From positions 1 through 64,000 of the forward strand of contig JACQFT010000082.1 in NCBI GenBank assembly GCA_016199925.1: a stretch of DNA of 64,000 nt. Direction: 5' to 3'. The notes below the pieces were generated by a model. It did not search any database and was not told the origin of the DNA. It saw only the letters and a program-made list of their open reading frames with translations. This DNA is from Opitutia bacterium. Its GTDB lineage: Bacteria > Verrucomicrobiota > Verrucomicrobiia > Opitutales > Opitutaceae. Position 1 is the first letter of the stretch; each line of letters begins with the position of its first letter. Below, piece after piece: positions 17,447 through 60,301 of the stretch. The translations under genes and the position numbers were made by a program.

Positions 17447-17517
17447 CGCGTCCCGCCCGAGAAAAGACCCCGGCATTCGACCAAACCCCATGAAACTCAC
17501 GACCGTCACATCACCGG

Positions 17518-17590
17518 GGAGGGATTCTGCTGGCCAGCAGAATGTCGTCCGTTTTTTGAACCTTGCGGACCGGACGGAGACGGTCCCTCC
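17518..17590 (+). repeat. Dispersed MITE-like repeat, family A
   Basis: The element starts GGAGGGA and ends TCCCTCC (inverted ends) and contains the 20-base palindrome at 17524-17543, then a GGACCGG/CCGTCTCC-type hairpin. A tail (acccaagccaagccgaagca) extends to about 17622. Full copies lie at 32498-32571 and, on the opposite strand, 60056-60129. Confidence 0.75.
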
Positions 17591-17641
17591 ACCCAAGCCA
17601 AGCCGAAGCACGCTTCGAGCTAGCGCGTCCCCCTGCCGCCC

Positions 17642-32433: not shown

Positions 32434-32497
32434 GCCTCCCGGCGCGTTCCGCGCAATCCGCCACACTTCATGCATCTCACGCCTATTGCACCGCCAG

Positions 32498-32571
32498 GGA
32501 GGGATTCTGCCGGCCAGCAGAATGTCGTCCGTCTTTTTACCCTTCGCGGACCGGACGGAGCCGGTCCCTCC
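32498..32571 (+). repeat. Dispersed MITE-like repeat, family A
   Basis: The inverted ends GGAGGGA and TCCCTCC enclose the palindrome-like ATTCTGCCGGCCAGCAGAAT (32504-32523) and a GGACCGGACGGAGCCGGTCC hairpin. The tail runs to about 32599. It is nearly the same as 17518-17590. Confidence 0.75.
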
Positions 32572-32618
32572 ACCCCGGCCAAGCCGAAGCAAGCTTCGGC
32601 AGATCGAACCCCTCGCCC

Positions 32619-35817: not shown

Positions 35818-36011
35818 GCAATGAGGGTGTTGGGAGTGATACTTCCCGCCGAGTAAACCGCCGCCCGCGCCGTATCCAAGCCTGTTCTCGTGCCGGCCGG
35901 CCGTTCCCGGTGAAAGTAGCGCCCGGCCGCGGCACAGAAGCCGCGCTTACTCCACACACACGCTGTGCTCGCCAAGCCGCGCGCCCCGCCCTAGCAGTTT
36001 CCCCGTCACCC

Positions 36012-39000
36012 ATGAGCGCCGCTCCCTCCCCAGCCGACCTCCGCCGCCTCGCCACCCGTCTCGCGGGCGAACTCCACTTCGACCGCGCCATGCGGACGCT
36101 GTATGCGACCGATGCTTCCGTCTATCGCGAGCTGCCTCTCGCGGTCGCACTGCCCGCGACCGAGGCCGATCTCCGCGAACTCATCGCCTTCGCGCGCGCG
36201 CACCGCACCTCGCTCATCCCGCGCACCGCCGGCACCTCGCTCGCCGGGCAGGTCGTCGGCGCCGGCATCGTCGTCGATGTGTCGCGGCATTTCGGGCGCA
36301 TCCTGGAGATCAACTCTGCCGAGCGCTGGGTGCGCGTGCAGCCGGGCGTCGTCCGCAACGAGCTCAATCTCGCGCTGAAACCCCACGGGCTCTTCTTCGC
36401 GCCCGAAACCTCCACGCAAAACCGCGCGATGCTCGGCGGCATGGCGGGCAACAACTCCTGCGGCGCCAACTCCATCGTTTACGGCTCGACCCGCGACCAC
36501 CTGCTCGAAGCCCGCGCCTTCCTCAGCGACGGCAGCGAAGCCGTCTTCGGCGTGCTCACCGCCGACGCTTTCGCCGCGAAATGCGAAGCCCGCACCCTCG
36601 AGGCCTCCATCTACCGCTGCGCGCGCCGCCTCCTCGGCGACGCCACCGTGCGCGCCGAGATCGACCGCGAGTTTCCGCGCCGGAGCATCCACCGCCGCAA
36701 CACCGGCTACGCGCTCGATCTGCTGAGCTGGAGCGCGCCCTTCACCCCCGGCGGACCGGCCTTCAATTTCTGCCGGCTCCTCGCCGGCTCCGAGGGCACC
36801 CTCGCCTTCGTCACCGAGCTGAAGCTCAACGTCGTGCCGCTCCCGCCGCGCGAGAGCGCGCTCGTCTGCGTGCATTGCCGCGACATCGACGAGTCGCTTC
36901 GCGTGAACCTCGTCGCGCTCCAGCACGCGCCGCACTCCAGCGAGCTGATCGACCACTACATCCTTGAATGCACCAAGGCCAACCTCGAGCAGAGCCACAA
37001 CCGCTTCTTCGTGCAGGGCGACCCGGGCGCCATCCTCATCGCCGAGTTCTGCCGCGACACGCCCGCCGACCTCGACGCCGTCGTCGCCGCCTTCGAGCGC
37101 GACTGCCGCGCCGCCGGACTCGGCCAGCATTTCCCCGTCGTGCGCGGCGCCGATCAGAGCCGCGTCTGGGACCTCCGCAAAGCCGCCCTCGGCCTGCTCT
37201 CCAACCTCCCCGGCGACGCCAAACCGGTGAACTGCATCGAGGACACCGCCGTCGATCCGCAGGACTTGCCGGCGTTCATCCGCGAGTTCAACGCGCTGCT
37301 CCAGACCCACGGCATGACGTGCGTCCACTACGCGCACGCCGGCTCGGGCGAACTGCATCTCAAGCCGATTCTCGACCTGAAATCCTCCGAGGGCCGCCGC
37401 CTCTTCCGCGTCATCACCGAAGAAGTCGCCGCGCTCGTGAAGCGATACGGCGGCTCCCTGAGCGGCGAACACGGCGACGGCCGCCTGCGCGGCGAGTTCA
37501 TCGCGCGGATGATCGGCGAGAAGAATTTCCAGCTCTGCCGCGAGATCAAGAAGGCGTGGGACCCGGCCGGTATTTTCAATCTCGGCAAAATCACCGACAC
37601 CCCGCCGATGGACACCTCGCTGCGCTACGAGCCCGGCCAGCACACGCGCGCCATCGACACGGTCCTCGATTTCTCCGCGACCAACGGCTTCCTCCACGCC
37701 GCCGAGATGTGCTCCGGCTCGGGCGACTGCCGCAAATCGCACCTCATGGGCGGCACGATGTGCCCGAGCTACATGGCGACGAAACTGGAGAAAGACACCA
37801 CGCGCGCCCGCGCCAACATCCTCCGCGAAGTCCTCACCCGCTCCGACCAGACCGACCCGTTCGCCAGCGACGAGATCGCCGCCGTCATGGACCTCTGCCT
37901 CTCGTGCAAAGGCTGCAAATCCGAGTGCCCGTCCAACGTTGACGTCGCGCGCCTCAAGACCGAGTGGCAGCAGAAATTCCACGACGCCCGCGGCGTGCCC
38001 CTCCGCACGCGGCTCATCGCCAACTTCGCCACCGCCATGAAATGGGCCGCCCGCGCCCCGCGCCTCCACAACGCGGTTGTAACACATTATATTACAAGTC
38101 GCCTGCTCAAACGCCTCGTCGGCTTCGCCGGACAACGCAGCCTGCCCACGCTGCACCCGACGACCCTCGCCGCGTGGCACGCCAAACACGCAAACCGCTC
38201 GGGCCTCGGCGGCGTCCCCTGTAACGCCGGCCCCTGCTTGCCCGCCAGAGCCTTGGCGACGGCGGGTGGCCGCGCCGCCGCGCCACCATCGCCGGACGGC
38301 TCCGTCACTGTAGGAGCGGCTTTACGCCGCGATACGAACGCAGAATCGACCACGAATCGCGGCGTAAAGCCGCTCCTACAGTCAACCCAAGACACCCACC
38401 CTTTTCCCCACGGCCGCGTCCACCTCTTTTGCGACGAGTTCACCAACTACCACGACACCGCCGTCGGCATCCAGGCCGTCGAGCTGCTCAACCGGCTCGG
38501 CTACGAGGTCGTCATCCCCGCGCACGTCGCCAGCGGGCGCGCGCAGTTTTCCAAAGGCCTCCTCCGCGACGCCCGCGCGCTCGCGATCCGCAATGTCGAG
38601 CTGCTCAAGGACGTCATCACCGCCGGCGCACCGCTCGTCGGCCTCGAACCGTCCGCGCTGCTCGGTTTCCGCGACGAGTTTCCCGACCTGATGCCGGCGC
38701 ACTTGAAGGACGCCGCCCGGGCGCTCGCGAGAAACGCGCTGCTGCTCGACGAGTTCATCGCGCGCGAAGCCGACGCCGGGCGCATCACCCCCTCGCAGTT
38801 CACGACGCGCCCTGCGGCCATCAAGCTCCACGGCCACTGCCACCAGAAGGCTCTCGCGTCGATTCAGCCGACGTTGCGCGCGTTGCAATTGCCGGCGAAC
38901 TACCGCGTCGCGGTTATCGCCTCCGGCTGCTGCGGCATGGCGGGCTCGTTCGGCTACGAGGCGGAGCACTACGCGGTCTCGCAGCAGATCGGCGAGCTCG

Positions 39001-39140
39001 TGCTCTTTCCCGCCGTGCGCTCCGCTCCGGCCGAGACGCTCATCGCCGCGCCGGGCACCAGTTGCCGCCACCAGATCAAAGACGGCACCGGCCGCCGCGC
39101 GCTGCACCCGGTGGAGATTCTCCACGCCGCGCTCGCCTGA
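36012..39140 (+). CDS. FAD-linked oxidase fused to Fe-S GlpC-type domain (GlcD/D-lactate dehydrogenase type)
   Basis: The 1042-residue protein has an N-terminal FAD-binding domain (SLIPRTAGTSLAGQVVGAG; MLGGMAGNNSCGANSIVYG) and the FAD-oxidase C-domain (GGSLSGEHGDGRLRGEF). Two 4Fe-4S motifs follow (CSGSGDCRK..MCPSY and CLSCKGCKSECPSN), then a CCG-type domain (HGHCHQKA, SGCCGMAGSFG). It likely oxidises a 2-hydroxy acid and passes electrons to the quinone pool. About residues 740-795 are an extra segment absent from the family, encoded by a hairpin repeat in frame. The ATG at 36012 follows the longer open frame from 35910. Confidence 0.92.
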   Translation: MSAAPSPADLRRLATRLAGELHFDRAMRTLYATDASVYRELPLAVALPATEADLRELIAFARAHRTSLIPRTAGTSLAGQVVGAGIVVDVSRHFGRILEINSAERWVRVQPGVVRNELNLALKPHGLFFAPETSTQNRAMLGGMAGNNSCGANSIVYGSTRDHLLEARAFLSDGSEAVFGVLTADAFAAKCEARTLEASIYRCARRLLGDATVRAEIDREFPRRSIHRRNTGYALDLLSWSAPFTPGGPAFNFCRLLAGSEGTLAFVTELKLNVVPLPPRESALVCVHCRDIDESLRVNLVALQHAPHSSELIDHYILECTKANLEQSHNRFFVQGDPGAILIAEFCRDTPADLDAVVAAFERDCRAAGLGQHFPVVRGADQSRVWDLRKAALGLLSNLPGDAKPVNCIEDTAVDPQDLPAFIREFNALLQTHGMTCVHYAHAGSGELHLKPILDLKSSEGRRLFRVITEEVAALVKRYGGSLSGEHGDGRLRGEFIARMIGEKNFQLCREIKKAWDPAGIFNLGKITDTPPMDTSLRYEPGQHTRAIDTVLDFSATNGFLHAAEMCSGSGDCRKSHLMGGTMCPSYMATKLEKDTTRARANILREVLTRSDQTDPFASDEIAAVMDLCLSCKGCKSECPSNVDVARLKTEWQQKFHDARGVPLRTRLIANFATAMKWAARAPRLHNAVVTHYITSRLLKRLVGFAGQRSLPTLHPTTLAAWHAKHANRSGLGGVPCNAGPCLPARALATAGGRAAAPPSPDGSVTVGAALRRDTNAESTTNRGVKPLLQSTQDTHPFPHGRVHLFCDEFTNYHDTAVGIQAVELLNRLGYEVVIPAHVASGRAQFSKGLLRDARALAIRNVELLKDVITAGAPLVGLEPSALLGFRDEFPDLMPAHLKDAARALARNALLLDEFIAREADAGRITPSQFTTRPAAIKLHGHCHQKALASIQPTLRALQLPANYRVAVIASGCCGMAGSFGYEAEHYAVSQQIGELVLFPAVRSAPAETLIAAPGTSCRHQIKDGTGRRALHPVEILHAALA
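38077..38097. repeat. Palindromic site inside the FAD/Fe-S gene
   Basis: A 21-base near-palindrome with outer arms TTGTAA and TTACAA, in a strikingly AT-rich spot for this gene. Its layout resembles the TTGTCACGTA-type palindromes at 42205 and 42253. Confidence 0.45.
38307..38382. repeat. Dispersed hairpin repeat, family B, translated in frame
   Basis: Two perfectly matching 27-base arms (38307-38333 and 38356-38382) flank a 22-base loop. The arm begins ACTGTAGGAGCGGCTTTACG. A related hairpin lies at 50138-50201 and half copies at 53835 and 55132. It lies inside the coding sequence and encodes the start TVGAALRRDTN without a stop or shift. The bases just before it (38233-38265) match the family E stretch at 55148. 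Confidence 0.8.
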
Positions 39141-39735: not shown

Positions 39736-39804
39736 GGAGGGTCCACCTCTGTGTGGACCGCTTGTAGCGGCGGACGGCATTCTGCTGGCCAGCAGAATCC
39801 CTCC
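39736..39804. repeat. Dispersed MITE-like repeat, family A, variant interior
   Basis: The ends GGAGGGTCCACC and AATCCCTCC are inverted, and the 20-base palindrome lies at 39779-39798. The rest of the interior (GTGTGGACCGCTTGTAGCGG) differs from the copies at 17518 and 32498, so this is a variant arrangement. Confidence 0.65.
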
Positions 39805-50137: not shown

Positions 50138-50201
50138 CTGTAGGAGGGGCTTTATGCCCCGATGGTTTGTGCTGGATCGCGGCATAAAGCCGCTCCTACA
50201 C
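50138..50201. repeat. Dispersed hairpin repeat, family B
   Basis: The left arm (50138-50163, starting CTGTAGGAGGGGCTTTATGC) pairs with 50176-50201 with a few changes. Where the left arm has GGGGC/GCCCC the right has GCGGC/GCCGC. It fills the convergent gap after mntR and before tatC. A perfect version is at 38307. Confidence 0.7.
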
Positions 50202-53834: not shown

Positions 53835-53861
53835 TGTGGGAGGGGCTTTACGCCCCGACAC
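53835..53861. repeat. Half copy of family B repeat
   Basis: TGTGGGAGGGGCTTTACGCC matches one arm of the 38307 and 50138 hairpins without its partner. A further short match (GGGGAGGGGCTTCCTGCCCC) follows near 53909. Confidence 0.5.
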
Positions 53862-58450: not shown

Positions 58451-58580
58451 CCGGTTTCGAAGCGGGAATCGGGCCGCGTTCTTCCCGTCGTCACAGAGCG
58501 TTTGACCACGACCCTCCGCGGGGTCGGTCCCGCTCGCGGGTCAAAGCCGCCTTCGCCCGCGGCACCCCGCGTCGGTGCAC

Positions 58581-58604
58581 GGACCGGACGGAGCCGGTCC
58601 CTCC
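58581..58604 (+). repeat. Partial family A repeat
   Basis: Only the second half (GGACCGGACGGAGCCGGTCC then CTCC) and tail (ACCCGAGCCAAGCCGG) of the family A element are present after vsr. Confidence 0.6.
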
Positions 58605-58670
58605 ACCCGAGCCAAGCCGGAACTTTGCCCTGACCAGCAGAGCGCGTTCCCCAGAATCTTCCGGGCTAGT

Positions 58671-59903: not shown

Positions 59904-60055
59904 GCGCGCGACGGTGCGGCGGTGCGTCGCCGTCCGGCTCTGCGTCCTTCGCGGGGCTGGGCGGGGCTGGCCGGCGGCGGCGCGTTTCGTTCGCGATGGG
60001 CCCGCTACCCCGAAGCTCGTCCGCCGCGGCGGGTGAGCTTCGGCATAGATTGAGT

Positions 60056-60129
60056 GGAGGGACCGGCTCCGTCCGGTCCACGGATCGCGAAAAGTCGGAC
60101 GACATCCTGCTGGCCAGCAGAATCCCTCC
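60056..60129 (-). repeat. Dispersed MITE-like repeat, family A, reverse orientation
   Basis: The inverted ends GGAGGGA and TCCCTCC enclose the family core on the minus strand, with GGACCGG hairpin and CTGCTGGCCAGCAG palindrome. Length (74) equals that of the copy at 32498. Confidence 0.75.
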
Positions 60130-60301
60130 GCGGCGCAGCTACGGTTGCGCGTTGCATACGGTTTGGTCGGATCCGTCGCGACTTGCTCCGAGGAGGTTTT
60201 CTCGCGGACCGGGGCAAGGGTGCCCCGGTTCCGACGGCGTGCCCCGGTTCCAAAGAACCCGCGGTCCCCGCCGGGTTCGTCGCGGAGCCAATGCATCCGC
60301 C

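Follow-up and report, generated by a model that had tools for sequence, protein, structure and literature searches.

A REPIN read in frame in the inter-domain linker of an FAD/Fe-S oxidoreductase of an Opitutia bacterium, probably a tolerated mobile insertion

The window, a stretch of 64,000 nucleotides from one contig of an Opitutia bacterium, contains an oxidoreductase gene in which the Fe-S part and the CCG part of the protein are connected by a segment (residues 767-828) containing palindromic repeats. The relevant features are:

35910..39140, + strand: host oxidoreductase gene with FAD_binding_4, FAD-oxidase_C, 4Fe-4S and CCG (GlpC-like) domains, YdiJ/GlcD-GlcF-type
38208..38393, + strand: disordered inter-domain linker, residues 767-828 (AlphaFold2 model and alignment), containing all palindromes
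38220..38236, + strand: left-arm remnant of a third palindrome, family F (GTGTAGGGCCGGCCCTTG...), whole at the same site in G001 and L218
38241..38266, + strand: family E palindrome CCCGCCAGAGCCTTGGCGACGGCGGG, read in frame within the oxidoreductase and adjoining the REPIN
38307..38382, + strand: REPIN of family B, 76 nt, two inverted GTAG-REPs, encoding VGAALRRDTNAESTTNRGVKPLLQ
50139..50200, + strand: intergenic REPIN, also of family B
53836..53857, + strand: single REP arm of family B directly downstream of a gene, incomplete as a REPIN
17473-17617, 32453-32598, 39771-39804, 58567-58631 and 60036-60172: copies of other dispersed inverted repeats

Translation of the oxidoreductase probably starts at the ATG at 36012 (residue 35), and the N-terminal 35 residues of the open reading frame are probably not translated. 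In an AlphaFold2 model built on 45 sequences these residues had pLDDT values of about 30. The only other disordered segment was the linker, residues 767-828, also with a pLDDT of about 30; the domains on either side exceeded 90. Family-invariant residues and domains are retained in both halves of the protein. The frame is stop-free across the REPIN and is maintained through all three palindromes.

The host gene itself looks mosaic. Residues of about 250-660 (window positions 36660-37890) showed 63-74% identity to a homologue from a Verrucomicrobiota MAG (L247), with Bacteroidota homologues about as close, and 49-68% identity to Opitutus-type relatives. The C-terminal part, unlike this region, is nearest to the Opitutus-type relatives.

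A sequence-only reading had described a 76-base hairpin with perfect 27-base arms, read in frame without a stop, and this was confirmed. The arms match perfectly over exactly 27 nt and no further (38307-38333 with 38356-38382); extended to 30 nt, 29 of 30 positions pair, and the length of 76 nt takes in the ACT/AGT ends. The predicted RNA fold reached -56.4 kcal/mol, compared to -22.1 +/- 2.9 for shuffled sequences (z = -11.9). The REP arm GTAGGAGCGGCTTTACGCCGCG combines a GTAG head with a GCGGC/GCCGC stem, as in GTAG-tagged REPs, and occurs five times within the window and never in shuffled sequences. Two such REPs stand inverted around a short variable spacer, which is the structure of a REPIN, and the whole element lies inside the reading frame, as in intragenic GTAG-REPs. 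The adjoining family E stretch proved to be the palindrome at 38241-38266. As for the similar hairpins reported elsewhere in the window, the one at 50139-50200 is indeed a REPIN, but 53836-53857 is a single arm and forms no hairpin pair. Further dispersed repeat families with inverted copies in the window are represented by GGACCGGACGGAGCCGGTCCCTCCACC and GGCATTCTGCTGGCCAGCAGAATCCCTCC.

The repeat was then counted in the home genome (G000; 3.79 Mb, 264 contigs, a draft MAG-like assembly). At up to three mismatches the REP arm gave 228 matches, while the reversed-pattern control gave none, so that the repeat is of high copy number. Family E and family F are likewise dispersed, with 72 matches to the family E core in the genome and dozens of copies of family F. 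A catalogue built from the sequence stretches around the copies of the REP arm comprised 131 distinct elements among the matches listed, 82 of them REPINs of mostly 58-60 nt. Of these 131 listed elements, 17 sit stop-free and in frame inside genes with a coding signal on both sides, as judged by a simple codon model. Across the 27 intragenic arms each of the four GTAG bases is conserved at 89-100%.

Most of the 17 hosts carry Pfam or NCBIfam domains of conserved proteins. They include a carboxyltransferase, FtsY (insert between the N and G domains), SufD, MnmA, Tmk-HolB, an E1-E2 2-oxoacid dehydrogenase (insert in a linker), HrpA, a U32 protein, two aldehyde dehydrogenases, BatD, an MFS transporter, an OGG-type glycosylase and others. 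No second full-length copy was found in the genome for the eight hosts searched. In orthologue alignments with the congener G001 the insert was missing from FtsY, HrpA, Tmk-HolB and MnmA, and common to both genomes in SufD and E1-E2. The SufD orthologues of G022 and G030 were without it. The carboxyltransferase of the congener carries a different insert at about the same codon, apparently another repeat. In the E1-E2 fusion (L180, 2563-5919, minus strand) a family E palindrome is nested in a second GTAG-REPIN, both in frame (SAVAKAMADKKAPPT); insertions are therefore layered in one protein.

Inserts occupy the same places in the E1-E2, HrpA and FAD/Fe-S proteins of Opitutus sp. PR.011, a genome with 80 arm matches. 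The arm pair GCGGG/GGGGC is found in two of the 82 REPINs among the matches listed; it is present in the intragenic copies of HrpA (L107) and FtsY (L002) and also in the HrpA insert of PR.011. Judged from this rare arm pair, common descent of the HrpA insert in the two genomes seems favoured, but the empty HrpA site of the congener runs counter to it. Gene-embedded copies were not found among 59 copies examined in the REP-rich relative G018 (P = 0.002 against the 17 of 131 listed). Keeping REPs inside genes therefore appears to depend on lineage, as a trait of some lineages.

The oxidoreductase linker was compared between relatives. The congener gene shows 92% identity over residues 4-644, and its linker contains neither the REPIN nor family E and consists of the family F palindrome. 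In most of the relatives and about 55 named homologues compared the linker is short, in many relatives with only a few residues, and it is variable in all of them. The alignments thus bore out the existence of an extra segment, both against the congener and against short-linker relatives. Its estimated size of about 55 residues was roughly right compared to the short-linker relatives G022 and G030; compared to G001 the linker is only about 30 residues longer, because G001 has a different palindrome there. As protein sequence the insert is not conserved. The relative from another genus whose linker also includes a REP-encoded piece, Opitutus sp. PR.011 (L221), carries one lone GTAG-REP in the same phase (QVGGALRPDS), which is different and shorter. 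Other palindromes, detected as self-complementary matches, lie in the linkers of a Verrucomicrobiota MAG (L281) and a Planctomycetia MAG (L282), and in two Bacteroidota records (L229, L245) pieces of the linker are repeated nearby. When 78 homologous genes were scanned for perfect arms of at least 10 nt, the linker was not generally enriched in them, because most linker palindromes are imperfect, and the following is therefore based on the named cases: as different palindromes occupy the linker in several relatives, it looks like a permissive landing place.

The gene-embedded copies are strongly biased in codon phase. Two phases of each arm are free of stops, and in the other copies they are about equally common. 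Among the copies listed, 13 of 14 genic first arms read VGAALRRD and 12 of 13 genic second arms read KAAPTV, so that one phase (VGAALRRD...KAAPTV) is used by 25 of 27 embedded arms. With REPINs counted as units the combined bias has a P of about 1e-4. The second arm of the oxidoreductase REPIN is in the rarer phase; the copies in Opitutus PR.011 and G030 are in the same, common one. Length is biased as well: among the copies listed, REPIN length is 2 mod 3 in 8 of 10 genic elements versus 27 of 72 elsewhere (P = 0.014). That a target preference causes this bias was considered and rejected. ACT before GTAG is typical of intergenic copies too, and G022 does not have it where its empty SufD site aligns; it thus looks like part of the element. 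The simplest reading of the bias is selection for harmless peptides.

We consider it highly probable (about 0.88) that a mobile REPIN, probably moved by a RAYT, inserted in frame into the linker of the FAD/Fe-S/CCG oxidoreductase and is tolerated there, and that the same process affected at least 16 other proteins. The linker would have received older palindromes first, namely the family F element of which a remnant is left and the family E element, and then the REPIN, a non-autonomous unit of two inverted GTAG-type REPs. The insertion point would be a flexible-linker region, the phase stop-free and the net length change divisible by three; both folded parts would therefore be kept, and the protein would gain a disordered REP-encoded segment, provided that it is translated as read. 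The insertion may be tolerated because it lies within a linker. Selection at the level of the product would retain only stop-free and frame-preserving copies, mostly in the VGAALRRD...HKAAPTV phase, and may in this way have decorated the other proteins of the genome. The mover called for by a REPIN family may be the RAYT on contig C212, which is flanked on both sides by REPs of the same family and matches NCBIfam REP_Tyr_transpos at 5e-18, a score below the curated cut-off; it would be the protein that moves the family B REPINs. In G018, a 97% complete genome with 137 REP arm matches, a search with Y1_Tnp gave no match, and it seems that its repeats either persisted after a resident RAYT was lost or never depended on one.

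The REP-encoded peptide could instead have been recruited for a function, as a spacer, an interaction motif or a translation brake acting through the mRNA hairpin, with one phase favoured for it. The use of one phase by nearly all listed embedded arms, the very stable RNA hairpin and the inserts at the same places in PR.011 would fit such a role. However, congeners differ in the presence of the inserts, whose length and sequence also vary, the host proteins are unrelated, other palindromes do as well in the oxidoreductase linker, and the favoured phase may just avoid Cys/Phe or Leu-Leu peptides. We therefore regard a recruited function as unlikely. Even less credence is given to a pseudogene, or to a gene whose product the palindrome breaks into two polypeptides, in which the open frame would be an accident of GC-rich DNA. 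Chance open frames are indeed many in GC-rich genomes and ribosomes could stall at an RNA hairpin of 27 bp, but the conservation of invariant residues and domains in both halves, the frame kept across three palindromes and in at least 17 host genes, and the length bias of the listed genic REPINs make this very improbable. That reads from another place were joined at the repeat is hardly credible: assemblies do break at repeats and this draft consists of 264 contigs, yet the element is just 76 nt, both flanks encode one protein in one frame, and the same two flanks occur in the congener.

Insertion and tolerance of a mobile REPIN, the reading preferred here, has parallels in known systems. Intragenic GTAG-REPs were reported from several species, most of them in Opitutus terrae, with dimers in ORFs encoding 20-30 residues (Di Nocera et al., 2013, PMC3733652). 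The elements described here resemble them in being GTAG-tagged short palindromes, singles and inverted dimers, read in frame. They differ in species and hosts; the paper stresses DNA repair genes, whereas the hosts here are mixed. The classic parallel for in-frame peptides is the Rickettsia palindromic elements (Ogata et al., 2000, reviewed in PMC10969869), which are mobile palindromes too and extend conserved proteins of unrelated kinds by in-frame peptides. The likeness is one of behavior alone, as these elements are about 150 bp long, belong to other sequence families and reside in obligate intracellular hosts. With published REPINs and RAYTs (Bertels and Rainey, 2011, PMC3116915; Nunvar et al., 2010, PMC2817692) our elements share two inverted REPs per unit, high copy number and a family that matches the REPs flanking a RAYT gene. 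The published ones are mainly extragenic, while a notable minority is intragenic here. A repeat of intergenic type turned into a protein segment had been called unusual, which was half right. A high-copy dispersed repeat does appear to have become part of the protein, the REPIN being missing in the congener and the short-linker relatives; however, at least 16 more in-frame copies lie in the same genome, and in-frame palindromic repeats in proteins are already described in Opitutus terrae and Rickettsia. What is new here, relative to the consulted parts of Di Nocera et al. (2013, PMC3733652), is the bias in phase and the repeated filling of this one linker, across phyla, by different palindrome families.

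A broader idea can be put forward tentatively, and we hold it to be doubtful, though less so than a recruited function: the REPIN family may have evolved, or been filtered, so that one codon phase gives a benign soluble peptide (VGAALRRD...HKAAPTV), and inter-domain linkers may repeatedly be rebuilt from whatever mobile palindromes a lineage has, so that such repeats would supply linkers to proteins in different phyla.

The embedded copies amount to natural insertion experiments, with at least 17 genes of one genome, most of them conserved, carrying the same mobile peptide. Empty sites for some of them in a congener of about 90% identity allow a direct measurement of how well mobile DNA in proteins is tolerated and what it costs. 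With the phase bias and the repeated use of one linker, it can be tested whether these repeats are merely tolerated or feed protein evolution.
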